A stretch of DNA of 32,220 nt from Blastocatellia bacterium (lineage in GTDB: Bacteria; Acidobacteriota; Blastocatellia; Pyrinomonadales; Pyrinomonadaceae): assembly GCA_013697915.1 (NCBI GenBank), contig JACCVY010000266.1, positions 1-32,220 of the forward strand. Direction: 5' to 3'. The translations under genes and the position numbers were made by a program. Position 1 is the first letter of the stretch; each line of letters starts with the position of its first letter. Shown here one piece after another: positions 592 through 25,779 of the stretch. The notes under the pieces are model-generated. The model had not been told where the DNA came from. It did not search any database and was given only the letters and a program-made list of their open reading frames with translations.

Positions 592-3500
592 ATGACTATT
601 CAGAAATCCGCATTACGCTCTTGTGTCCTTTTACTCTTCGCATCCCTCTCCATGGTCCTGGCCGCCACGGTTTTAAACGCCCAGGACACGGTCACCGGAG
701 CCTTCGAAGGCACAGTGAGCGACAGCCAAACCGGAGCACTGCTCAAGGGCGCCGACGTGGAGATTATTAACCAGGACACCGCTCTGACTATTCGGCTTCA
801 TACCGACAATCGCGGACGTTTCTATCAAGGATTGCTTCTACCCGGTGTTTACAGGATTCGTGTGGCGTTGGCTGGTTATCAACCACGGGAAGTGCTGCAA
901 CGTTTGAAGATCACCTACACCGGCGAAGTTGTGCCTGTGCCTGTCTTGCTTGACCCTGCGACTCCCGCCACCACAACAGCCACACCAGGAACCTCAGCTC
1001 CAGCCCCAGCGCCTGGAGTTGTAGACACAGACGTACCTGCCAGCATTAACCGGCTTGACGGGCGTCGCAGTGGCTCGTTCTCGCAAGAAGAAGTAACCGG
1101 GCTTCCACTTGGTCCACACTCGAGTCGTTCTTTTGATGAATTCAGCCTGCTCGTACCGGGCGTTGCGCCGCCGCCGCAAACACTTGGCAACGTGGCTGGA
1201 CCCGGAGTCGGCGCCGGCGTTGGTTCGGCCGGACAGTTTTCCGTCAACGGCTTGCGTTCGCGCGCAAACAATTTCACCGTTGATGGGTCAGACAACAATG
1301 ACGAAGACATTGGCGTGCGGCGGCAGGGATTTGTGGCGCTCGTGCCGCAACCGATCGAATCTATTCAGGAGTATCAGATAATTACTTTGCTGGCGCCGGC
1401 GCAGTTTGGACGCAACATTGGCGCTCAGGTCAACGCAGTATCCAAGTCGGGCGGCAACCAGACGCATGGCACCGGCTATGGCTTCTTCAATTCCAGCCGG
1501 CTCAATGCACGTAACTTCTTTGACACCACATTGGGCAATGGTGTTTCGCAGTTGCGCACGGCAAGCAATCAGCCGGTGCTATTGAACGGCAATCCGATTC
1601 TCGTCAGGAATCAGAGCGGTGGTAACGACTCGCTTACGCTGGGCCAGGGCGGATTCGTGCTTGGTGGTCCACTCGCGCCTGACCGCATGTTCTATTTCAT
1701 CTCGGGTGAAGGACAGCTGAGCAATGCCACCAAAGAACAAAGCTTTGCGGTTCCGACGATCGAACAGCGCGGTGCGTTTAATAGTGGCGCCAGTGCAATC
1801 TTTCGCAACCCGCTTGGCAGGCGCGATGCGAATGGCAACCCTACTGAACAGGTGTTTGCTTATCCAACCACGTCGCAGGGCGATGCCATCTTTAGTTTCT
1901 ACCCTTTTCCAAATAATCCCGGCGGCGTCTTTGGCCTCAACACGTTCACGCAAGTTTTGCCTGCAAGCGAGCAGGGCAAAATACTTTCGGGCAAGTTTGA
2001 CGGTAACTTCAAAATTAAAGAGAGACTGCAGACCGTAACGGCGCGTTACAACTTCACGGATGATTGGCGAGATATTCCGTCTGTCGGCGAAGCAATCTTC
2101 TCCTCAATTCGTGCGAACGTGCGCGCGCAAAACCTTTCCTTGTTTTTGAATAGCAAAGTGAGCAGCCCGGCATCGACCACTGCCGTGTTCAATCAAGTGC
2201 GCCTCTCTTATGGTCGTACGCGTCTAAACTTCGAGGAGCTGCGCGATCAAACATTCTTGCGTCCCAGCGACACTCTGGCAAACACGCCGTTTCTGCTGAA
2301 CGCGCCCTTGCTCCTAAACTCAACGCTGCCACGCGTCATTACTAACGTCGAATTTGGCGCCAACACCGGCCCAGTTCTTTACACCACCGATCCAACCGCG
2401 CCGCGAACCGAAGCTGCCCTGGGCACGGTGGGCCAAATCAACATGGCAGGTTTCAGCCCGGTCGGCGTCGATGTTTTCAACTTTCCGCAGCGGCGTGTAA
2501 ACAACACGTACCAGGTCGCCGACACCTTAACTTACAATCCGGGCCGCCACCGTCTGGCATTTGGGATAGATACACGCCGCAGTGAGCTCAACAGTGAACT
2601 TCCGCGCAACGCGCGCCCTTTGATCACTTTCAACGGCGCGCCTGAGATCGATCTCACGCCGCAAGGAACTCTTGCTTATTCGAATCGTTTTATCCGGCCG
2701 GAAACACTCGCCGCAGCCTCGGCGGCAAGTGGCTTCTCCCAAACGCTGGCCACCGGCGGTGAGTCGTCAATCGGTCTGCGTTTTTATCAGCTCGACTTTT
2801 TCACGCAGGACGAATGGCGCGTGCGCGATACGCTCTCGCTCTCGTTGGGTCTGCGCTACGAATACAATACGCCGCCGACCGAGATGAACCGCAAGATCGA
2901 AAGCACCTTCAACGATCCTTCGCTCGCAGCGGCGCCGGGCCTGAAAACATTTATTGCGGGTCGCACGCACATCTTCGAGCCCGACCGCAACAACGTTGCG
3001 CCGCGGGTTGGCCTTGCCTTTTCCCCTCACTTGTTTGGGCCAAATCGCACGACGGTGTTCCGCGGTGGTTATGGCATCTTCTACGATCAGATACTCGGCG
3101 CCGTAGTCAGCCAGTCGCGCAACGTCTACCCGACTTATCTGACGCTTGATCTCGCTGGCGGCTTCGCGAATCTGCGTTTCATTCCCGGCAATAACCAGTT
3201 TGGTGATTCATGCCAGTTACAAAATCGCTGTGCGTATCAGTTCATCAATCCGCAGAATGCCACGCTCTTTGGCGTGCCGCTCGTTGCTCCGGGCACGCTA
3301 AACACGCTTAACCCGCGCCTAACGTTTGCCCAGATCGCCAGTATCGTTAATCTGGTTGGCGGCGGGCCCGTGCCCGCCTTGAGTGGTTTTGGCGTCACCC
3401 TGCCCGCGCGGCAGCTTGAGATGCCGATGGCCCAACACTACAGCTTTTCTTTCGAACAACAACTGCGACGCAACCTCGTTGTTTCAGCCTCGTACGTCGG

Positions 3501-4431
3501 CACGCGGGGACAAAGTCTGTTGCGCTTTACCACGCCGAATCTCGGACGCAACGCTTTATTGGCGCCGTTGGCATTCAGCACGCTGCTCAGCGCCGAGCCA
3601 ATGTTCTTTGGCCTCGCCTTGCCGCCCGGCACGAGCATCAGCCCGCAAGGCAACATCGCCGGTGGCCGACCAGTCAGCAGCGTTGGCGCCGTAACGCAGT
3701 TTGAAACCACCGGAACATCGCGCTACGACTCGTTACAGTTGCAGGCGCGCGGCCGTTTTAGCAGAGCGTTGCAGTACGATCTGGCTTACACGTTCTCCAA
3801 AGCGACTGACGACGTTTCCGATGTCTTCGATCTGGCGGGTGCCTCGGCGTTGCCGCAGGACAGTTTCGATCTGACAGCCGAACGCGGGCCGGCTAATTTC
3901 GACGCGCGCCATCGCTTTGCTTACAACTTCCTCTACACCTTCAGCAACTTCGCCGCTCGTGAGCGCCTCTTCCGCGCCTTGGCTGGCGGTTTGCAAATTG
4001 CCGGCCTGGGACAGTTTCAAACCGGCCAGCCGTTCACCGTTAACAGCATCTTTGACGTCAATCTTGACGGCAATCTTACCGACCGGCTCAACAATACTAA
4101 CGGCATCGAGGTCACGGGGAATCGCCAGCAACCTTTGCGGCTGACAACCACGAACACGGCCGGCATGCTCGCTTCCGTGGGCCAGGACGGACGCATTGGG
4201 CGAAACAGTTTCCGCGCCGGCAATTTGCTGGATCTGAATTTGGCGGTCATCAAAAAATTTGCCATCACCAGCAGTCAGGGCGTGATGCTGCGCGTCGACA
4301 TTTTCAACTTCCTCAACCGCGCCAACTTTGGCATACCGGTACGGCTGCTCGAAGCGCCCGGTTTCGGACAGGCGACCAACACCGTCACACCCGGCCGACG
4401 CATCCTGTTGGCCTTGAAGTATTCGTTTTGA
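592..4431 (+). CDS. Oar-like TonB-dependent outer-membrane receptor with carboxypeptidase-regulatory domain
   Basis: A 1279-residue protein. Residues 1-31 are a signal peptide ending near NAQ. Residues about 35-115 form a carboxypeptidase-regulatory-like (CarboxypepD_reg) beta-sandwich (GAFEGTVSDSQTGA, then GVYRIRVALAGY). A Pro/Ala/Thr-rich linker covers about 120-150. A plug-like region follows (FSVNGLRSRANNFTVDG, then QPIESIQEYQI and GAQVNAVSKSGGN). The remainder has the aromatic, alternating pattern of a TonB-dependent beta-barrel and ends in LALKYSF, a typical C-terminal outer-membrane insertion signal with terminal Phe. This architecture is the Oar-like family, expanded in Acidobacteriota and often assumed to import glycans or peptides, but the substrate cannot be read here. 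The ATG is preceded by TGGAGA about 7 nt upstream. No TonB/ExbBD genes are adjacent and the gene appears monocistronic. Confidence 0.9.
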   Translation: MTIQKSALRSCVLLLFASLSMVLAATVLNAQDTVTGAFEGTVSDSQTGALLKGADVEIINQDTALTIRLHTDNRGRFYQGLLLPGVYRIRVALAGYQPREVLQRLKITYTGEVVPVPVLLDPATPATTTATPGTSAPAPAPGVVDTDVPASINRLDGRRSGSFSQEEVTGLPLGPHSSRSFDEFSLLVPGVAPPPQTLGNVAGPGVGAGVGSAGQFSVNGLRSRANNFTVDGSDNNDEDIGVRRQGFVALVPQPIESIQEYQIITLLAPAQFGRNIGAQVNAVSKSGGNQTHGTGYGFFNSSRLNARNFFDTTLGNGVSQLRTASNQPVLLNGNPILVRNQSGGNDSLTLGQGGFVLGGPLAPDRMFYFISGEGQLSNATKEQSFAVPTIEQRGAFNSGASAIFRNPLGRRDANGNPTEQVFAYPTTSQGDAIFSFYPFPNNPGGVFGLNTFTQVLPASEQGKILSGKFDGNFKIKERLQTVTARYNFTDDWRDIPSVGEAIFSSIRANVRAQNLSLFLNSKVSSPASTTAVFNQVRLSYGRTRLNFEELRDQTFLRPSDTLANTPFLLNAPLLLNSTLPRVITNVEFGANTGPVLYTTDPTAPRTEAALGTVGQINMAGFSPVGVDVFNFPQRRVNNTYQVADTLTYNPGRHRLAFGIDTRRSELNSELPRNARPLITFNGAPEIDLTPQGTLAYSNRFIRPETLAAASAASGFSQTLATGGESSIGLRFYQLDFFTQDEWRVRDTLSLSLGLRYEYNTPPTEMNRKIESTFNDPSLAAAPGLKTFIAGRTHIFEPDRNNVAPRVGLAFSPHLFGPNRTTVFRGGYGIFYDQILGAVVSQSRNVYPTYLTLDLAGGFANLRFIPGNNQFGDSCQLQNRCAYQFINPQNATLFGVPLVAPGTLNTLNPRLTFAQIASIVNLVGGGPVPALSGFGVTLPARQLEMPMAQHYSFSFEQQLRRNLVVSASYVGTRGQSLLRFTTPNLGRNALLAPLAFSTLLSAEPMFFGLALPPGTSISPQGNIAGGRPVSSVGAVTQFETTGTSRYDSLQLQARGRFSRALQYDLAYTFSKATDDVSDVFDLAGASALPQDSFDLTAERGPANFDARHRFAYNFLYTFSNFAARERLFRALAGGLQIAGLGQFQTGQPFTVNSIFDVNLDGNLTDRLNNTNGIEVTGNRQQPLRLTTTNTAGMLASVGQDGRIGRNSFRAGNLLDLNLAVIKKFAITSSQGVMLRVDIFNFLNRANFGIPVRLLEAPGFGQATNTVTPGRRILLALKYSF

Positions 4432-5216: not shown

Positions 5217-8200
5217 ATGTTTCGGCTACCACAAAACTGCCCCCGCAGCGAACGTTTGCTTCGACTATCAGTTATCCCGCTAGCGCTGGGGATCCTTGTC
5301 ACCCTGCTAATTTACGGCTCTGGGAACATGCTCAGCCTCGTTTCGGCAGCCTTGCAGCAACAGCAGGGCAAAACTACTACGCCGCCAGGTCCAACAGCCG
5401 CCAATCCAGCCGGCGGTAATCCCAACAGTCCGAATTCTCTGGGGAACTATCCCAACACTAGCGTGCAGCTAAGCGCGAACACGACCATCACGCCCGATGC
5501 CGCGCCTTTCAACACCTTCAGTATCAATGTGTCTACGTCAACAAATTTCAAGGGCAAGCTGGAAGGCGATCCAGCGACGGGTGTAGTGCGTGTAACAGAC
5601 GCGCATCCGGCAGGCGTGTACACAGTGACGGTCACGGGCTTCGACATCCAAGGGTCTACGACGAAGACCTTCACGTTGACGGTGACGACGCCCGTGACGT
5701 GTAATCCGGTCACCTTCGCGGCGGCGGCGAACTTCGCCGATAGCGGTCAACCTCAATCAGTGGCCGTGGGTGATTTTAATGGCGATGGCAAGCAAGACCT
5801 CGCCACTGCTAATAGCGGAAACAACAACGTGTCGGTCTTGTTGGGCAATGGCGCGGGCGGTTTCGGCGCCGCCACCAACTTCGCTGTTGGCAGCACTCCT
5901 CTCTCAGTGGCGGTGGGCGACTTCAACGGCGACGGCAAGCAAGACCTCGCCACCGCAAACAGCAACTCTAACGATGTGTCCGTGCTGTTAGGCAACGGCG
6001 CGGGTGGTTTTGCCGCCGCCACCAGTTTCGGCACCGGGTCTAGCCCTGTCTCGGTGGCGGTGGGCGATCTCAACGGCGATGGCAAGCAAGACCTCGCCAC
6101 GGCCAACATTAACTCAGCCAACGTGTCGGTGCTTTTAGGCGACGGCGCGGGCGGTTTCGGCGCTGCCACGAATTTCGGCGCGGGTGCCAGTCCTCGTGCA
6201 ATAGCGTTGGGCGACTTTAACGGCGACGGCAAGCAAGACCTCGTCACTACCAATATCAACTCCAACGACGTGTCGATCTTACTGGGCAACGGCGCGGGCA
6301 GTTTCGGCGCCGCCACGAACTTCGGCTTCATCGACAAGCCGTTCGGAGTGGCGGTGGGCGACTTCAACGGCGATGGCAAGCAAGATCTCGCCACCACCAG
6401 CCTTAACTCAACCAGTGGGAAGATCCTGCTGGGCAACGGCGCGGGCAGTTTCAGCGCCCCCACCAGTTTCGCCATCGGCGACGTTTCCCGCTCGGTGGCG
6501 GTGGGTGACTTCAACGGCGACGGCAAGCAGGACCTCGCCACCGCGAACGAGAACACAAACAATGTGGCGGTCTTGTTGGGCGATGGCGCAGGCGGTTTCA
6601 GTACGGCCAGCAATTTCGGCGTCGGAAGTTTTCCTCGCTCGGTGGCGGTCGGCGATTTCAACGGCGACGGCAAGCAGGACCTTGCCGCAGCCAACGCCGG
6701 GACGTTCGACGTGTCGGTCTTGTTGCGGCAATGCCCGGCCGCGCCGACGCTGGGCAACTACGCGAACACAACAGTGCAGCTTGGCGCGAACACGACCATC
6801 ACGCCCGATGCCGCGCCGACGAATACGGCAAGCATCAATGTTTCTACTTCGATGAACTTCAACGGCAAGCTGGAAGGTGATCCGACGACGGGTGTTGTGC
6901 GCGTGACAGATGCGCATCCGGCGGGCGTGTACACAGTGACGGTCACAGGCTTCGACACTGGTGGGACTACGACGAAGACATTCACGCTGACGGTGACGAC
7001 ACCCGCGACGTGCAACCCGGTCACCTTCGCGGCGGCGGCGAACTTCGGGGCCGGAGCTAATCCTCAATCAGTAGCGGTAGGCGATTTCAACGGCGACGGC
7101 AAGCAGGATCTCGCCACGGCCAGCGAGAACTCAAACAACGTGTCGGTCTTGCTGGGCAATGGCACGGGCGGCTTCGGTGCCGCCACCAACTTCTCCGTCG
7201 GAAGTCCTACCTCAGTGGCAGTAGGTGATTTCAACGGCGACGGCAAGCAAGACCTCGCCACGGCTAACGGTAACTCAAACAACGTGTCGGTCTTGTTAGG
7301 AGATGGGGCGGGCAGCTTCGGCGCGGCTGCCAACTTCGTCGCCGCAAGTAATCCTCAATCAGTGGCGGTTGGCGATTTCAACGGCGACGGCAAACAAGAC
7401 CTCGCCACGGCCAACTTTCTCTCAAACGACGTGTCGGTCTTGCTGGGTAACGGCGCGGGCGGCTTCGGCGCAGCCACCAACTTCGGCGCCGGACCTAACC
7501 TTAAATCAGTGGCGGTTGGCGATTTCAACGGCGACGGCAAGCAAGACCTCGTCACCGCCAGCCAAAGCTCAAACAGGGTGTGGGTCTTGTTAGGAGATGG
7601 GGCGGGCGGCTTCGGCGCAGCCAATAACTTTGTCGCCGGGACTGCTCCTCAATCAGTTGCGGTTGGCGACTTCGACGGCGACGGCAAGCAAGACCTCGCC
7701 ACGGCCAACGCTAACTCAGACGACGTGTCGGTCTTGCTGGGCAATGGCGCGGGTAGTTTCGGCGCGGCTGCCAGCTTCGTCGCCGGAAGTGTCCCTCAAT
7801 CAGTAGCGGTGGGTGATTTCAACGGCGACGCCAAGCAAGACCTCGCGACGGCCAACAAATTTTCGAACAACGTGTCGGTCTTGCTGGGCAACGGCGCGGG
7901 CAGTTTCGGCGCGGCCACTAACTTCGGCGTTGGAGCGACCCCTCTATCAGTGGCGGTAGGCGATTTCAACGGCGACGGCAAGCAAGACCTCGTCACTGCC
8001 AACATTAGCTCAAACAACGTGTCGGTGTTATTGCGGCAATGCCCGACCCCGACTGCCCTCTTCGTCAGCAACACCAACGACAGCGGCGCAGGCTCACTGC
8101 GGCAAGCTATCACGGACTCGAACAACACGGCGGGTACACAGACCATCGCCTTCAACATCGCTGGCGCGGGCGTGCACACGATCAGCCCGACCTCAGCACT

Positions 8201-11200
8201 GCCGACGATCATCGATCCGGTCATCATCGACGGCTACACGCAGCCGGGCGCGAGCGCCAACACGCTGGCAGTTGGCGATAATGCCGTGCTTTTGATCGCC
8301 CTCAATGGGGCTACGGCGGGCGGGCACGGCCTGAGCGTAACGGGGCAGAACACGACCATCCGCGGACTCGTCGTCACTAGCTTCGACGCTGGCGTGCGCA
8401 TTACCAACGGCGCGACAGGCAACCGCGTCGAAGGCTGCTACTTGGGCTTGAACGCCAATGGCACGTCCGCTTCCGGGAACCAGCGCGGCGTGGTCGTTGA
8501 TACGAACTCAAGCAACAATACTATCGGTGGCGCGACACCCGCAGCGCGCAATATCTCATCCGGCAATGTACTGACCGGCATCAGCATCGCCACTGCCAAT
8601 AACAACATTGTCATCGGTAACTACTTTGGCACCAATGCGGCTGGCACGACCGGCTTACCAAATGGATTGTACGGCGTTGAAGTTTTCGCCGGCGCGCAAA
8701 ATAACCGCATCGGCGGCACGGCTGCCGGCGAAGGCAATGTTATCTCCGGCAACAGTGTTAACGGACTGCGGATTGGTACTGCGAGCACATCCGGCACCAG
8801 CGTGCAAGGCAACTTGATCGGCGCCAACGCCGCTGGTACTGGCGCTTTGGGTAATTCCGGCTTCGGCGTCAGCATTGATGAACCCTCAAGCAATAATACG
8901 ATTGGCGGCCCAGCCGCCGGCGCAGGTAATCTCGTCGCCTTCAACGGCGGCGGCATACTCGTCGCCAGTGGCACAGGCAATTCGATCCTCTCCAACACGA
9001 TTCACTCCAACGTCGGCCTCGGAATCGATCTGGGTAACAACGGCGTAACGCCGAACGACGCGGGCGATGCCGACATAGGTGCGAACAACTTACAGAACTT
9101 CCCCGTGCTGACTTCGGTTAACTCAAGCGCTGGCAACACGACCATCACGGGCACGCTCAACTCAACGGCCAACACGACCTTCCGCGTCGAGTTCTTCTCC
9201 AGTGCCGCGTGCGACGCATCGGGCAACGGTGAAGGACAGACCTTCCTCGGCTCGGTCACTGTATCGACGGACGGGAGCGGCAACGCCACGATCAACGCCA
9301 CGCTGGCGGCCTCGGCTGCGGGCGTGGTCACAGCGACCGCGACCGATCCCGCAGGCAACACGTCCGAGTTCTCCGCCTGCGCGACAGTTGTTAGCTCATG
9401 CGCCACACCGCCGCCGAACATGGTGGCCTGGTATCCAGGCGACGGCAACGCGCTCGACATTCAGGGCGGCAACAACGGCACGCTGCAAAACGGAGCGACG
9501 TTTACGCCGGGTAAGGTTGGGCAAGCATTCAGTCTTGATGGCGTGGACGACCAAATCTTCATCGGCAATCCGACGAGCTTGCGCATCACGGGCGATTTGA
9601 CGATTGATGCGTGGGTCAATCCTGTTGACGTGACCGAAGGCCAGTTGGCTTCGATTGTGACCAAGTGGGGCTTCGATGGAACGACCGATAGCTATGGCCT
9701 CTGGCTCACTAAACAAGGCGGCGTCATCAAATTGTTTTCAGCCCTTGGGGACGCCGCTGGAAGTGGCGATAGCGGTTTCGCGGGCGGCACACTCGCGCCC
9801 AACACTTGGACGCATGTCGCCATGACCTATCAAGCCTCCAACGGCTTGCATACGCTCTACGTCAACGGCCAGCAAGTGGCCCAACGGACTCGCACTGGCG
9901 GCATCCGCAACACCACCACCAACGTCCTCATCGGGCGTGAAGGTTCATCGCAACAGCGACCCTTCAATGGTCAGATTGATGAAGTTGAAATCTTCAACCG
10001 CGCCCTCTCGCAAACGGAGATTCAAGCAATCTTTAATGCCGACAGCGCGGGCAAGTGCAAGGCGTCACCAACGCCGACACCCACACCAACGCCGACACCC
10101 ACACCAACGCCGACACCAACGCCGCTCGCCTTCAAGATCAGCGGGCGCGTGGTGGACGATAGCGGCGCAGGCATCGGCAACGTCACTATTGACTTGACAG
10201 TCTTGAGCGGCGGGCAGACAGGGGCCACGCAGACCGACGCAAGCGGGAATTACTCGTTCACTACGGTCCAAGGCGGTTCGAACTATCTGGTGACCCCGTC
10301 GAGCAGCAATTATTCCTTCAGCCCCGCCAGCCAGACTTTCAATAACTTGAACGTGGATCGCATCGCCAACTTTGTGGGAACACGGACTGTGGTGAGCATT
10401 ACAGGCACGGTGACTGACGCAAACAATGTCGGGATCAATAATGTATCGCTCGCGCTGACCAAGAACGGCGCGGCGGCCGGGACTGCGCAGACGGATGTGC
10501 TTGGTAATTACAGCTTCGGTAATCTCGCAGCCGGAGCAAATTATGTGGTGACGCCGGCGGGAAGCTTCACGCCGTCGAGTCAAAACTTTACCAATCTAAC
10601 CGTGAACGCCACCGCCAACTTCAAGGCCGCGCTAAGTATTCCTTCACAATGCAACACGGCAGGCTTTGCGGCCGCAACCAACTTCGCTGCCGGCACGTTT
10701 CCCATTTCCGTCGCCGTGGCCGACTTCAATGGCGATGGTCAGCTCGATCTGGCAGTGGCGAATCAGAATTCCGATAACGTTTCGATTCTGTTGGGCACTG
10801 GCATTGGCGGCTTCAGCGTCGCAACGAACTTCGCTACAGGCTCAGCTCCCATTTTCGTCGCAACAGGCGACTTCAATAGCGATGGCAAGCTTGATCTGGC
10901 GGTCGCGAATAATAATTCCGCTAACGTCTCGATCTTGCTGGGCACGGGCACGGGCAGTTTCAGTGCCGCAACCAACTTCGCTGCCGGCACAACTCCCATT
11001 TCCGTCGCCGTGGGCGACTTCAACAGCGATGGCAAGCTTGATCTGGCGGTCGCGAATAACCTTTCCACTGTCGTCTCGATCTTGCCAGGCACAGGGACGG
11101 GCAGCTTCGGTGCGGCCACGACTTTCGCTGTAGGCGCACGTCCCCATTCCGTCGCAGTGGGCGACTTCAATGGCGATGGCAAGCTTGATCTGGCGGTAGC

Positions 11201-13799
11201 GAATGACAATTCCGCTAACGTCTCGATCTTGCTAGGCACAGGCACGGGCAGCTTTAGTGTCGCAACCAATTTCACTGTAGGCTCAGTTCCCGTTTTCGTC
11301 GCAGTGGGCGACTTCAATGGCGATAGTAACCTTGATCTGGCAACGGCGAATGTCGATTCCAGTTCCAATAACGTCTCGATCTTGCTAGGCACAGGCACGG
11401 GTAGCTTCAGTGCCGCAACCAACTTCGCTGCAAGCGCAAATCCCCGTTCCGTCGCGGTGGGCGACTTCAATGGCGACGGCAAGCTTGATCTGACAGTGGC
11501 GAACCAGGGTTCCGATAACGTCTCGATCTTGCTAGGCACTGGCACGGGCAGCTTCAGTGCCGCCACCAACTTCGCTGTAGGCTCAGCTCCCTTTCCCGTC
11601 GCAGTGGGCGACTTCAATGGCGACGGCAAGCTTGATCTGGCAACAGCGAATTTGAGTTCCGCTAACGTGTCAATCCTGCTGAACAACGGCACGACCTGCA
11701 ACAGGCAGACTTCGCTGACTATCTCCGGCCAAGCTAAGGATGCCAACAACAACCCATTGCCTAAGGTTACGGTCACGCTCTCGGGTCCTATCACGCGTGT
11801 GATCCAATCTGACGCCAATGGCAACTATTCGTTTGCGAATCTCACACCGGGCGGCAACTATGCAGTGACGTTTCAGAGTCCCTACTTCGTCCTGGTGCCA
11901 TCGCGCACGGACTTCTTCAATCTCAGCAGTAATCAGACCGCCAACTTCACCGCCGCGCCGGTTGCCGTGCCTGCTCCAACGCCGCCGCCGAGCGATGATT
12001 TTAGCGGCTCGACCCGCGATCCCAACAAATGGAATTTAGGAACGCTGACACAACCGGCGGGAGCGTTTGATCCCCTAGTGACGACGGCGCAGATCAATGG
12101 GCAGTTAGTGTTGACGCCGCGCAGCCAAGTTAGTGGTCTGCACTACAACGGCTATGTCTCGGCCAACTCTTTTGACCTGACCAATGGCACGGCGAGTGTA
12201 GAAGTGGTTAAGGCCGCAACCGGCGGCGGGGATACCATCTTTGCTATTGGTTCGGACGCGGACAATTTCTACCGTTTCATGGTGCATACGGCGGGCGCGC
12301 CGACGAGCCAGGCGCCGGTAGTTAAGAATGTTAACGGCATCGAAGAACCTTTGGATGCGACTACGGCGCAGTTGATCTTTCAGGTCAAGGTCGGTGGAGT
12401 GTTGACCAGCTTGAGTATCAACTACGATCCGGTGCAGCACCGGTTCATGCGATTCCGTCACGAGCCGCCGACGAACTCCATTGTCTTCGAGACCAGTCCG
12501 GATGGGATCGTCTACGTAGTGCAGAACCGCGTGGTGCTGCAGAAGGGTGTATCGGCGCTGACGGCGGAACTGAGCGCGGGAACATCGAGTCCCACAAATC
12601 CGGGCCAGGCAGTCTTTGACAATTTTGGTTTGGTGACCAGCACATTTCAGTTCAGCGCCGGTAGTTACACGGTGGGAGAAGGCGACGGCAGCGTGCTGGT
12701 TACGGTGACCCGCACCGGCAGCACAACGGACGCGGCTTCAGTTTCTTACGCGACGACCGATGGCACGGCATCGCAAACGAACAAGTACATCACGGCGGTG
12801 GGCACGCTCTCCTTTGCGCCGGGACAGACGAGTAGGACATTCAATGTGCTGATTGTGGATAACGCTTTGACGGAAGGGAATCAGGCGTTGAATCTGTTCC
12901 TTAGCAATCCGGTTGGTTCGGGGCTCAATATTCCCGGGCGAGCGGTGCTCACGATCACCGACAACGACACGACTGTGGCGACCGGCAACCCGCTGGATGA
13001 TCCAGCATTCTTCGTGAACCAGCAATACTTCGACTTTCTCAACCGGACGCCTGACTCGAGTGGCCGCGCTTTCTGGATCAATCAGATTACCTCGTGCGGC
13101 ACCGACACAGCGTGCGTTGAGATCAGGCGCATCAATGTCTCGGCGGCCTTCTTCATTTCGATTGAGTTCCAGGAAACTGGCTATCTGGTGGAGCGGATTT
13201 ACAAAGCGACGTACGGCGACGCAGTCGGTACCTCAAACTTTGGGCCCACTCATCAGCTACCGGTGCCTGTCATTAGGTTCAATGAGTTTCTGCCGGACAC
13301 GCAGCAGATCGGACAGGGCGTGGTGGTTAATCAAACGGGGTGGGAACAGGTGTTGGAGAACAACAAGCAGGCTTTCATAGCTGAGTTTGTCCAGCGTGCG
13401 CGCTTTACAGCTGCCTATCCCACAACGATGACGCCTGCGCAGTTGGTTGACGCGCTCTACCTGAATGCCGGCGTGACACCATCAACAGCGGAGCAAACCT
13501 CAGTCATCAACGAGTTTGGCGGAGCTAGCACAAGCGCTGACACGGCGGCCCGAGCGCGAGCCTTGAGGCGCGTAGCCGAGAACTCGATCCTGAATCAGCA
13601 GGAATTCAATCAGGCGTTCGTGCTGATGCAATACTACGGTTATCTGCGACGTAACCCGAACGACACGCCTGACTCAGACTACAGCGGCTACGACTTTTGG
13701 CTGACGAAGCTCAACCAGTTCAATGGAAACTTTGTTAACGCCGAGATGGTCAAGGCCTTCATCGTTTCGGGTGAGTACAGACAACGGTTTGGTCCGTGA
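5217..13799 (+). CDS. Giant secreted mosaic protein: three FG-GAP arrays, beta-helix, LamG, Calx-beta, DUF4214
   Basis: 2860 residues, with AAGGAG 10 nt before the ATG. A signal peptide or anchor covers residues about 15-48. The domain order is: Ig-like (75-160); FG-GAP array 1 (162-506); second Ig-like copy (512-598); array 2 (599-942); right-handed beta-helix-like region with GNVISGN-type turns (947-1398); LamG/concanavalin-like (1401-1613); Pro-Thr linker (1617-1637); two carboxypeptidase-regulatory-like domains (1640-1806); array 3 (1812-2161); a third such domain (2165-2255); concanavalin-like domain (2258-2475); Calx-beta (2477-2585); DUF4214 (2592-2860). FG-GAP repeats carry DFNGDGKQDL, an integrin-type calcium loop. 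The protein is probably an extracellular or cell-surface adhesin or matrix protein; the ligand is unknown. There is no catalytic motif, sortase signal or autotransporter barrel. Confidence 0.88.
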   Translation: MFRLPQNCPRSERLLRLSVIPLALGILVTLLIYGSGNMLSLVSAALQQQQGKTTTPPGPTAANPAGGNPNSPNSLGNYPNTSVQLSANTTITPDAAPFNTFSINVSTSTNFKGKLEGDPATGVVRVTDAHPAGVYTVTVTGFDIQGSTTKTFTLTVTTPVTCNPVTFAAAANFADSGQPQSVAVGDFNGDGKQDLATANSGNNNVSVLLGNGAGGFGAATNFAVGSTPLSVAVGDFNGDGKQDLATANSNSNDVSVLLGNGAGGFAAATSFGTGSSPVSVAVGDLNGDGKQDLATANINSANVSVLLGDGAGGFGAATNFGAGASPRAIALGDFNGDGKQDLVTTNINSNDVSILLGNGAGSFGAATNFGFIDKPFGVAVGDFNGDGKQDLATTSLNSTSGKILLGNGAGSFSAPTSFAIGDVSRSVAVGDFNGDGKQDLATANENTNNVAVLLGDGAGGFSTASNFGVGSFPRSVAVGDFNGDGKQDLAAANAGTFDVSVLLRQCPAAPTLGNYANTTVQLGANTTITPDAAPTNTASINVSTSMNFNGKLEGDPTTGVVRVTDAHPAGVYTVTVTGFDTGGTTTKTFTLTVTTPATCNPVTFAAAANFGAGANPQSVAVGDFNGDGKQDLATASENSNNVSVLLGNGTGGFGAATNFSVGSPTSVAVGDFNGDGKQDLATANGNSNNVSVLLGDGAGSFGAAANFVAASNPQSVAVGDFNGDGKQDLATANFLSNDVSVLLGNGAGGFGAATNFGAGPNLKSVAVGDFNGDGKQDLVTASQSSNRVWVLLGDGAGGFGAANNFVAGTAPQSVAVGDFDGDGKQDLATANANSDDVSVLLGNGAGSFGAAASFVAGSVPQSVAVGDFNGDAKQDLATANKFSNNVSVLLGNGAGSFGAATNFGVGATPLSVAVGDFNGDGKQDLVTANISSNNVSVLLRQCPTPTALFVSNTNDSGAGSLRQAITDSNNTAGTQTIAFNIAGAGVHTISPTSALPTIIDPVIIDGYTQPGASANTLAVGDNAVLLIALNGATAGGHGLSVTGQNTTIRGLVVTSFDAGVRITNGATGNRVEGCYLGLNANGTSASGNQRGVVVDTNSSNNTIGGATPAARNISSGNVLTGISIATANNNIVIGNYFGTNAAGTTGLPNGLYGVEVFAGAQNNRIGGTAAGEGNVISGNSVNGLRIGTASTSGTSVQGNLIGANAAGTGALGNSGFGVSIDEPSSNNTIGGPAAGAGNLVAFNGGGILVASGTGNSILSNTIHSNVGLGIDLGNNGVTPNDAGDADIGANNLQNFPVLTSVNSSAGNTTITGTLNSTANTTFRVEFFSSAACDASGNGEGQTFLGSVTVSTDGSGNATINATLAASAAGVVTATATDPAGNTSEFSACATVVSSCATPPPNMVAWYPGDGNALDIQGGNNGTLQNGATFTPGKVGQAFSLDGVDDQIFIGNPTSLRITGDLTIDAWVNPVDVTEGQLASIVTKWGFDGTTDSYGLWLTKQGGVIKLFSALGDAAGSGDSGFAGGTLAPNTWTHVAMTYQASNGLHTLYVNGQQVAQRTRTGGIRNTTTNVLIGREGSSQQRPFNGQIDEVEIFNRALSQTEIQAIFNADSAGKCKASPTPTPTPTPTPTPTPTPTPLAFKISGRVVDDSGAGIGNVTIDLTVLSGGQTGATQTDASGNYSFTTVQGGSNYLVTPSSSNYSFSPASQTFNNLNVDRIANFVGTRTVVSITGTVTDANNVGINNVSLALTKNGAAAGTAQTDVLGNYSFGNLAAGANYVVTPAGSFTPSSQNFTNLTVNATANFKAALSIPSQCNTAGFAAATNFAAGTFPISVAVADFNGDGQLDLAVANQNSDNVSILLGTGIGGFSVATNFATGSAPIFVATGDFNSDGKLDLAVANNNSANVSILLGTGTGSFSAATNFAAGTTPISVAVGDFNSDGKLDLAVANNLSTVVSILPGTGTGSFGAATTFAVGARPHSVAVGDFNGDGKLDLAVANDNSANVSILLGTGTGSFSVATNFTVGSVPVFVAVGDFNGDSNLDLATANVDSSSNNVSILLGTGTGSFSAATNFAASANPRSVAVGDFNGDGKLDLTVANQGSDNVSILLGTGTGSFSAATNFAVGSAPFPVAVGDFNGDGKLDLATANLSSANVSILLNNGTTCNRQTSLTISGQAKDANNNPLPKVTVTLSGPITRVIQSDANGNYSFANLTPGGNYAVTFQSPYFVLVPSRTDFFNLSSNQTANFTAAPVAVPAPTPPPSDDFSGSTRDPNKWNLGTLTQPAGAFDPLVTTAQINGQLVLTPRSQVSGLHYNGYVSANSFDLTNGTASVEVVKAATGGGDTIFAIGSDADNFYRFMVHTAGAPTSQAPVVKNVNGIEEPLDATTAQLIFQVKVGGVLTSLSINYDPVQHRFMRFRHEPPTNSIVFETSPDGIVYVVQNRVVLQKGVSALTAELSAGTSSPTNPGQAVFDNFGLVTSTFQFSAGSYTVGEGDGSVLVTVTRTGSTTDAASVSYATTDGTASQTNKYITAVGTLSFAPGQTSRTFNVLIVDNALTEGNQALNLFLSNPVGSGLNIPGRAVLTITDNDTTVATGNPLDDPAFFVNQQYFDFLNRTPDSSGRAFWINQITSCGTDTACVEIRRINVSAAFFISIEFQETGYLVERIYKATYGDAVGTSNFGPTHQLPVPVIRFNEFLPDTQQIGQGVVVNQTGWEQVLENNKQAFIAEFVQRARFTAAYPTTMTPAQLVDALYLNAGVTPSTAEQTSVINEFGGASTSADTAARARALRRVAENSILNQQEFNQAFVLMQYYGYLRRNPNDTPDSDYSGYDFWLTKLNQFNGNFVNAEMVKAFIVSGEYRQRFGP
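5700..6734 (+). repeat. FG-GAP array 1 (seven about 49-residue repeats)
   Basis: There are seven in-frame repeats of about 147 bp with the core SVAVGDFNGDGKQDLATAN, then NVSVLLGNGAGGFGAATNF. The array begins at Cys162, just before a lone VTFAAAANF strand, and ends at Cys506 in VLLRQC, where the seventh repeat lacks its last strand. Confidence 0.9.
7011..8042 (+). repeat. FG-GAP array 2 (seven repeats)
   Basis: Seven repeats of the same type are bracketed by Cys599 and Cys942. The preceding Ig-like domain is also duplicated, so the Ig plus array unit appears to have been copied once as a block of about 1.3 kb. Confidence 0.9.
10066..10128 (+). repeat. Pro-Thr microrepeat linker
   Basis: Tandem ACGCCGACACCCACACCA-type units encode alternating Pro and Thr. 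This is a flexible linker between the LamG-like domain and the following regulatory-like beta-sandwich domains. Confidence 0.8.
10650..11699 (+). repeat. FG-GAP array 3 (seven repeats, diverged)
   Basis: Seven repeats have the variant core VAVGDFNGDGKLDLAVAN, then NVSILLGTGTGSFSAATNF, bracketed by Cys1812 and Cys2161. It is more diverged from arrays 1 and 2 than these are from each other (KLDLAVAN against KQDLATAN), which suggests a separate origin or an older duplication. Confidence 0.9.
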
Positions 13800-23470: not shown

Positions 23471-23535
23471 ATGCGCTGTCTGCCAACGTTTTTCCGCATT
23501 TCCACAACAAGTTTCAGCTCAGGAGATTGATCTCG

Positions 23536-25779
23536 ATGAATAGAAATGCCTTCAGGTCCCGTCGCGCCCGTACCTCTTCGTTTTTTGTGTTGCTGATTGT
23601 CGCGCTGATCACCGCGCAGTTGGCATTAGCGCCGTTTGCCGGCGCGCAGAATCCAAACCCCTCGACGCCGGTCGTCGATGGTTCGGCGCCACCGGCTAAG
23701 CTTGCTTATCCGGATTCCATGCCGGGCGCGACCGTCGACGATTATTTTGGCACGAAGGTTTCCGATCCCTATCGCTGGCTGGAAGATGATCGGGCACCGG
23801 CAGTTGAGAGATGGGTCGAAGCCCAGAACAAAGTTACGTTCGCGTACCTCGACAGGATTCCTTACCGGCAAAAAATCAAAGAGCGTTTGACGGCGCTTTA
23901 TAATTATCCGAAATTCTCTGCGCCGGCGCACCGCGGCGACTATTTTTTCTACACCAAGAACGATGGTCTACAAAACCAAAGTGTTTGGTACCGGCAGAAA
24001 GGCCTCGATGGCGTCGCCGAAGTTCTGCTTGATCCAAACAAACTGTCGGCGGATGGCACGACGCGATTGGGATCGGTTGCATTCTCGAAGGACGGAAAGT
24101 ATTTGGCGTATGGCGTTTCGCAGGGCGGTTCTGACTGGAACGACGTTTATGTTTTGGATACGGCGACGAAGCAATTGTCGACGGACCACATTGAATGGAT
24201 GAAGAGCTCAAACATCTCCTGGCAGGGCGATGGCTTTTACTACAGCCGTTATCCCGCGCCCGAAAAGGGCCACGAGCTGACTGCGAAGAACGAGAATCAT
24301 CAGGTTTTTTATCACAAGATTGGAACACCGCAATCCGCAGACACACTCGTTTACGAGGATCCAGCAAACCCACAGCGCTTTCACAACGTGGGGGTTAGCG
24401 ACGACGAGCGATATGCGTTTCTTTATGTTTCAGAACGCGGCAAGGGCAAGAAAGGAAATGCGGTTTTCTGGCGGGATGCATCACACCCGGGCTCGGCATT
24501 CAGTCCGGTTGTTGCCGGTATTGGCGACGACACTTACAACGTAATCGATAATGTGGGCGACAAGTTTTTGGTTTACACAGATCACAAGTCGCCGAATGCT
24601 CGTATATTTCTTTTCGATCCAAAGAGGCCCGAAGAAGGAAACTGGAAAGACGTCATATCCGAAAAATCTGAGCCCATTGACGATGTGAACACAGCCGGCG
24701 GCAAAATCTTCGTAAGTTATCTGAAAGATGTTGCGGCTCGCGTTGAAGTTCATAATTTGGACGGCAAACTGGAAAACGAAATTAAGTTACCTGGCTTGGG
24801 CGCTTTGCCTGCGCCGTCGCCGGGGACGCCAAGTTCATTTGGCGGCAAACCTGATGATAAGTTTGTCTTTTACACCTTCACTTCTTTTAATTTTCCACCC
24901 ACGATTTACAAATACGATATCGCGACTAAAACGTCGAGCCTGTTTCGACAGCCGGAAATTCCTGGTTTCAAGTCAACCGACTTTGAAACTTCTGAAGTCT
25001 TCTACACCAGCAAAGACGGCACTCGCGTGCCAATGTTCCTGGTCCATAAGAAGGGAATCAAGCTCGACGGTAACAATCCAACAGTGCTGTACGGCTATGG
25101 CGGTTTCAATATCACCACTTCGCCAAACTTCAGCGCGTTGCGACTGGCGCTGCTCGAGCAGGGCGTCATTTACGCTTCTGCAAACATGCGCGGCGGCGGC
25201 GAGTATGGCGAGAAGTGGCATGAAGCCGGCACGAAACTTAAGAAGCAAAATGTTTTTGACGACTTCGTCGCTGCCGCCGAATACTTGATCAAGAATAAGT
25301 ACACCTCGCCCGAGAAACTCGCGATCCAGGGTGGCTCGAATGGCGGCTTGCTGGTCGGCGCTGTCGCCAATCAGCAGCCCGAGTTGTTTCGAGCGGTAGT
25401 GGAACAGGCTGGCGTGATGGACATGTTGCGCTTTCACAAATTCACCATTGGTTGGAACTGGGTGGCTGACTACGGCTCCAGCGAAAATGAAGCTGAGTTC
25501 AAAGCGCTCTATGCATATTCACCTATCCATAACATCAAAGCGGGCGTGAACTATCCGGCCACCTTGATTACGACTGCCGACCACGACGACCGCGTTGTGC
25601 CCGCGCACAATTTTAAGTACGCGGCCGCGTTGCAAGCAGCACAAGGCGGCACCAACCCAATTCTGATTCGCATCGATACGAAATCAGGTCACGGCGCCAG
25701 CAGCACGACCAAGGCAATCGAGCAGGCGGCGGACATCTATTCGTTTCTGATGTGGAATTTAGGTGTGACGCCGAAATAA
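23536..25779 (+). CDS. Secreted prolyl oligopeptidase (peptidase family S9A)
   Basis: 747 residues from the ATG at 23536, which is 10 nt after AGGAG; a TTG 9 nt upstream is too close to that site. A signal peptide ends at GAQ near residue 35, so the enzyme is probably periplasmic or secreted. The N-terminal part (SDPYRWLEDDRAPAVERWVE) is the S9A signature region. A seven-bladed propeller follows. The C-terminal alpha/beta-hydrolase domain has the catalytic triad Ser601 (GGSNGGLL), Asp684 (TADHDDRVVP) and His719 (SGHGASS). It cleaves after proline in short peptides. No operon partners: the gene is divergent to the VWFA gene and convergent to the kinase. Confidence 0.95.
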   Translation: MNRNAFRSRRARTSSFFVLLIVALITAQLALAPFAGAQNPNPSTPVVDGSAPPAKLAYPDSMPGATVDDYFGTKVSDPYRWLEDDRAPAVERWVEAQNKVTFAYLDRIPYRQKIKERLTALYNYPKFSAPAHRGDYFFYTKNDGLQNQSVWYRQKGLDGVAEVLLDPNKLSADGTTRLGSVAFSKDGKYLAYGVSQGGSDWNDVYVLDTATKQLSTDHIEWMKSSNISWQGDGFYYSRYPAPEKGHELTAKNENHQVFYHKIGTPQSADTLVYEDPANPQRFHNVGVSDDERYAFLYVSERGKGKKGNAVFWRDASHPGSAFSPVVAGIGDDTYNVIDNVGDKFLVYTDHKSPNARIFLFDPKRPEEGNWKDVISEKSEPIDDVNTAGGKIFVSYLKDVAARVEVHNLDGKLENEIKLPGLGALPAPSPGTPSSFGGKPDDKFVFYTFTSFNFPPTIYKYDIATKTSSLFRQPEIPGFKSTDFETSEVFYTSKDGTRVPMFLVHKKGIKLDGNNPTVLYGYGGFNITTSPNFSALRLALLEQGVIYASANMRGGGEYGEKWHEAGTKLKKQNVFDDFVAAAEYLIKNKYTSPEKLAIQGGSNGGLLVGAVANQQPELFRAVVEQAGVMDMLRFHKFTIGWNWVADYGSSENEAEFKALYAYSPIHNIKAGVNYPATLITTADHDDRVVPAHNFKYAAALQAAQGGTNPILIRIDTKSGHGASSTTKAIEQAADIYSFLMWNLGVTPK

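Follow-up and report, generated by a model that had tools for sequence, protein, structure and literature searches.

The 32,220-nucleotide window analyzed here, from contig JACCVY010000266.1 of a Blastocatellia bacterium genome, encodes a 2860-aa multidomain protein containing three arrays of FG-GAP repeats (Table 1). PF13517 (FG-GAP_3) covers all 21 repeats in 21 stretches (Pfam, E 1e-183), and the tandem repeats with a DxDxDG-type cation loop assign each array, at the sequence level, to the FG-GAP/VCBS (integrin-type) class. Judged by its LamG-like, Calx-beta, carboxypeptidase-regulatory-like and DUF4214 domains, the protein appears to be a secreted surface protein, and the analogy with VCBS propellers makes adhesion or carbohydrate binding its likely role (PMC9218822). 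The LamG-like domain is also flanked by a Cys pair (Cys1395/Cys1614), so stapling of a domain at its entry and exit may be general in this protein. Elsewhere in the window, positions 592-4431 encode a 1279-aa protein that has no NCBIfam match and whose sequence resembles that of a TonB-dependent outer-membrane receptor carrying a carboxypeptidase-regulatory-like domain at its N-terminus.

Table 1. Features of the propeller-containing protein, in window positions.
Feature	Positions	Strand	Basis
ORF, multidomain protein of 2860 aa with three FG-GAP propellers and an N-terminal hydrophobic segment	5217-13799	+	
Ig-like stretch upstream of propeller 1	5436-5690	+	weak He_PIG/PKD match, E 0.03, below cut-off
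Propeller 1 (residues 162-506), seven predicted blades	5700-6734	+	Cys/motif layout and AlphaFold2 model
Propeller 1 Cys codons, Cys162 and Cys506	5700-5702; 6732-6734	+	
Lone strand D of propeller 1 (VTFAAAANF), predicted to complete blade 7	5709-5735	+	sequence layout and model
Ig-like stretch, second copy, between propellers 1 and 2	6747-7001	+	similarity by eye
Propeller 2 (residues 599-942), seven predicted blades	7011-8042	+	layout; 73% identical to propeller 1
Propeller 2 Cys codons, Cys599 and Cys942	7011-7013; 8040-8042	+	
LamG-like jelly roll (Laminin_G_3, residues 1441-1603)	9399-10058	+	Pfam match
Propeller 3 (residues 1812-2161), seven predicted blades	10650-11699	+	layout and AlphaFold2 model
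Propeller 3 Cys codons, Cys1812 and Cys2161	10650-10652; 11697-11699	+	
CarboxypepD_reg-like domain, C-terminal to propeller 3	11718-11900	+	Pfam match
Calx-beta domain and DUF4214, C-terminus	12642-13172	+	Pfam match

A preliminary description of this DNA had proposed three arrays of exactly seven repeats, each bracketed by one Cys pair. Consistent with this proposal, we identified 21 DxNxDxxxD calcium-loop motifs in the translated ORF, in three groups of seven (residues 186-480, 623-916 and 1836-2132). The cysteines of the protein lie at residues 8, 162, 506, 599, 942, 1074, 1332, 1388, 1395, 1614, 1812, 2161, 2627 and 2633, which confirms the pairs 162/506, 599/942 and 1812/2161 and the statement that none of them encloses a further Cys. 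The spans, given as 344-350 residues, correspond to separations of 344, 343 and 349 residues (345, 344 and 350 counted inclusively), and the range 5700-11699 assigned to the arrays runs exactly from the Cys162 codon to the end of the Cys2161 codon. The entry Cys precedes the first motif by 24 residues, and the exit Cys follows the start of the last motif by 26, 26 or 29 residues. Given the Cys frequency inside such arrays in our first survey (0.16% per residue; 48 in 29,820), about 0.018 Cys would be expected per 11-residue flanking site – yet in the window's arrays a Cys is present at every one of the six flanking sites.

The position of these cysteines relates to how the arrays are cut. In an ordinary repeat, strands C and D are linked via the hairpin segment VSVLLGNGAGGFGAATNF. 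In the last repeat, strand C closes as VSVLLRQC (or VSILLNNGTTC) and strand D is missing; the array instead opens with this strand, CNPVTFAAAANF (or CNTAGFAAATNF). This agrees with the lone strand that had been described at the start of each array (VTFAAAANF, VTFAAAANF and GFAAATNF) and with a last repeat that ends after strand C. Laid on a normal repeat, the entry and exit Cys occupy adjacent hairpin positions in arrays 1 and 2 (+25 and +26). The Cys are thus predicted to sit in the chain parts that meet at the seam, both within the broken C-D hairpin. We also considered whether array 2 is an intact seven-unit copy of array 1, for which the comparison gave no support: same-position blades share 76% of bases, versus 77% for all inter-array blade pairs. 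The arrays therefore probably grew by amplification of single blades or were homogenised, with the count kept at seven.

Structure prediction supported the propeller assignment. AlphaFold2 modelled array 1 with a pLDDT of 95.9 and a pTM of 0.92 (53 sequences), and array 3 with a pLDDT of 94.8 and a pTM of 0.91 (37 sequences). Both models contain 28 strands, arranged as 1 + 6x4 + 3. Array 2 is predicted to form seven four-stranded blades too, based on its 73% identity to array 1. When structural matches were ranked by VIA-align, integrin alpha propellers came first (3nid_C; Z ~35, 320 residues, rmsd 2.4), with a superposition spanning model residues 11-352/353 and integrin residues 1-453. WD40 and lyase propellers came next, at Z ~33-34, so there is certainty about the class of fold and less about which family is closest. 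A sequence search of solved structures returned only weak integrin and CRTAC1 matches. The two high-confidence models and the full-length integrin alpha superposition support the claim that the arrays are seven-bladed with Velcro closure.

The model of array 1 also gives a view of the seam. Its lone strand occupies model positions 17-20, and isolated bridge residues occur at 12-13 and 350-351 (protein residues 166-167 and 504-505), where the C-D ladder of normal blades lies (e.g., 56 and 62). The lone N-terminal strand therefore pairs with the last blade in the model. Residues 155-164, which include Cys162, are modelled at a mean pLDDT of only 61, and Cys162 lies, at low confidence, four residues N-terminal of the bridged strand. 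Straight extension of this strand leaves Cys162 offset from Cys506 by some three residues, and a bond would require the C-N-P-V segment to fold back.

As a check, the preliminary description had suggested a survey of FG-GAP proteins for seven repeats with terminal Cys. We gathered complete seven-repeat arrays from related loci identified by sequence, and later widened the set with more loci; it was drawn by similarity to array 1 of the window and a few relatives, making it an uneven sample, and phylum labels were given by hand, based on record titles and search groups. Seven was the modal repeat number in the first survey (100/170 arrays), and entry and exit Cys co-occurred. In the first set, both Cys were present in 31 arrays, entry only in 23, exit only in 3 and neither in 37 (Fisher p 3e-7; 2.5e-5 when counted per locus), an association that the relatedness of the arrays inflates. 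No further Cys lay inside 26 of the 31 paired arrays, and entry and exit Cys occurred together amid varied flanking domains.

The entry-only arrays of the first set are mostly from Bacteroidota, and most of them share an additional Cys at a constant distance of 129-140 residues past the last motif. This downstream Cys lies within the motif NDDC-DExxYxF of the following Ig-like domain, which is a HYDIN/ASH-like Ig domain by Pfam. Loci that combine an entry Cys and the NDDC Ig-domain Cys without an exit Cys include L079 (6645-8160), L068, L069, L072, L074, L085, L092 and L095. In arrays with an exit Cys, the NDDC Cys position is instead Ser, Thr, Ala or Arg. These patterns suggest that the Bacteroidota entry Cys probably bonds the Cys of the next HYDIN/ASH-like Ig domain, forming an inter-domain disulfide. 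The NDDC Cys is also present in 24 of 53 Bacteroidota domains without an upstream propeller; it is common in Bacteroidota generally, so that, for the apparent swap, partner type is confounded with clade. We considered a strict two-of-three rule across the three Cys sites but do not claim it, as several anchor-type domains carry the Cys without an evident partner. We also observed that in L213, L208, L219 and L209 a Cys in the linker after LamG, just before an Ig-like domain, accompanies the NDDC Cys, which suggests a third pairing.

Considering both candidate partners, the enlarged set provided 103 evaluable arrays. An entry Cys at -28 to -22 (a window narrowed after data inspection) was present in 47, each with exactly one candidate partner: the exit Cys in 32, the Cys of the following Ig domain in 15 (Bacteroidota) and both in none. 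By comparison, just 8 of the 56 arrays without an entry Cys carry a Cys at either partner site. Neither site has a Cys in 48 of the 103 arrays, and the fold can therefore do without the bond. With a wider entry window (-30 to -20), no partner could be identified for six of the entry Cys, each of which lies at -20 or -30; a few Bacteroidota arrays (L071, L093, L098 and L200) have a Cys at -20, in the lone-strand region, without an identified partner. Fitting negatives are Runella zeae (L083), where Phe occupies the entry site, and two Algoriphagus arrays (L071) that have Ser there; none of these has a partner Cys. On a FastTree phylogeny of the propeller cores, with the Cys sites left out of the input, 14 of 18 entry-site changes share branch and direction with partner changes. 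In 500 tip shuffles, matching changes averaged 2.1 and reached at most 10, a rough comparison because tip shuffling removes the tree signal.

The window's own genome contains further examples. A fourth seven-repeat array, on contig C35 (L139), has both Cys (DAQC...SPAC); its entry Cys follows a hydrophobic N-terminal segment closely, with no Ig-like domain between. A fifth, on contig C93 (L140), has neither Cys. On contig C29, a gene for a DsbA-like protein (CPPC) adjoins one for VKOR (CQFC), and a second VKOR is encoded in the genome. The presence of these genes makes oxidation after export plausible.

From these observations, we conclude that each array very probably represents one Ca-binding integrin-type (VCBS/FG-GAP) seven-bladed propeller, Velcro-closed, with a seam disulfide that closes the ring after export. 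Calcium binding by the blades is predicted from the ligand motif. The 162/506-type bond itself is supported by Cys placement, co-variation across phyla and oxidative-folding genes. The lone N-terminal strand would supply blade 7 with its outer strand, D, and the opening and closing portions of the chain would thus pair side by side. Where the hairpin GNGAGG joins C and D in a normal blade, the seam would be a cut hairpin with one Cys on each cut end, and DsbA/VKOR-type oxidation after export would join the two – the disulfide replacing the missing hairpin. Because the Cys mark the points at which the chain enters and leaves the ring, their bond would close it covalently and carry pull along the chain. 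Pulling force and unfolding could then bypass the propeller, sparing the Velcro strands the load, a mechanical role that we infer.

Other explanations of the arrays and their Cys can be weighed against this one. Blade numbers vary among FG-GAP/VCBS proteins (PMC9218822), and the arrays could in principle be elongated or differently counted repeats rather than seven-bladed rings; two models at pLDDT 95-96, the integrin superposition and a survey in which seven is by far the commonest count make this extremely unlikely. A different pairing, with 506-599 as a staple around the Ig-like domain that separates propellers 1 and 2, or with bonds linking neighbouring propellers, would fit the fact that Cys506 and Cys599 flank the Ig-like stretch at 511-595, and an inter-domain partner is apparently used by the Bacteroidota relatives. 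We consider it improbable, however. The single-propeller protein on C35 has both Cys and no Ig-like domain ahead of the first, which argues against 506-599 pairing; no Ig-like copy precedes propeller 3, and the domains flanking arrays with both Cys are varied.

It is also conceivable that the linker Cys are conserved by common descent of the domain borders, as free thiols or for another purpose, and are unbonded. Relatedness does inflate the co-occurrence, and Bacteroidota anchor-type Ig domains often have the same Cys without an upstream propeller (24/53). Several observations nevertheless render unbonded Cys unlikely: the entry and partner sites are gained and lost together on the tree, the entry site is occupied by Phe or Ser in partnerless propellers (Runella zeae and Algoriphagus), and the host encodes DsbA-like and VKOR proteins.

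A broader proposal is that the entry Cys is a covalent node with interchangeable partners – its own exit Cys in Acidobacteriota, Verrucomicrobiota and Chloroflexota, and, in Bacteroidota, a Cys in the Ig-like domain that follows. With either bond, the ring would be spared mechanical load, the bond serving as a bypass for force. In the Bacteroidota arrangement, the bond would additionally bridge the junction with the following domain and relieve that junction of load too. We put this forward tentatively, judging its chances to be slightly below even.

Seven-bladed FG-GAP rings are widely used parts of large bacterial surface proteins and kin of the integrin head. A natural Cys pair in a cut hairpin, gained and lost with its partner and sometimes switched to the next domain, provides a clear means of testing how the rings stay closed extracellularly. 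The seam pair also offers a simple rule for counting blades and setting domain borders in repetitive sequences.

The fold and closure of these propellers resemble those of the integrin alpha N-terminal propeller, as the superposition above indicates. Disulfides in integrin propellers lie within blades and are not known to occur at the seam. The likeness to the integrin alpha subunit concerns the propeller fold alone, as the other domains here are of bacterial surface-protein types. A whole integrin propeller has three or four Ca sites in total (PMC3192720), whereas here the Ca-loop motif occurs in every repeat. Described bacterial integrin-type propellers have seven FG-GAP repeats with one Ca site per repeat, as here, and occur singly or sometimes as two tandem copies (Chouhan et al. 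2011, PMC3192720), whereas the protein described here has three copies per chain, each with a seam Cys pair; the text of that study makes no mention of cysteine, disulfide or Velcro. The VCBS superfamily shares DxDxDG cation-binding blades, continual blade amplification and Velcro closure with our arrays (Pereira and Lupas 2021, PMC8023676; 2022, PMC9218822), in texts that do not mention cysteines or disulfides. A search of open-licence papers for seam disulfides in FG-GAP propellers returned nothing relevant, and a natural seam Cys pair in bacterial FG-GAP rings, together with its alternative partner, looks new within that literature. Ring closure by a disulfide is known from the hemopexin-type propellers of matrix metalloproteinases, in which one bond joins the first and last blades (PMC10267602); these are alike in this respect but are four-bladed, eukaryotic and unrelated in sequence. 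The window itself encodes a prolyl oligopeptidase (23527-25779; Peptidase_S9_N and S9), a natural contrast in that the seven-bladed propeller of this family has neither Velcro nor disulfide (PMC3778648). The ring of prolyl oligopeptidase has been stabilised by engineering a disulfide that connects blades 1 and 7 (PMC3778648), but that bond is artificial, whereas the Cys pair described here is natural and comes on top of Velcro closure.
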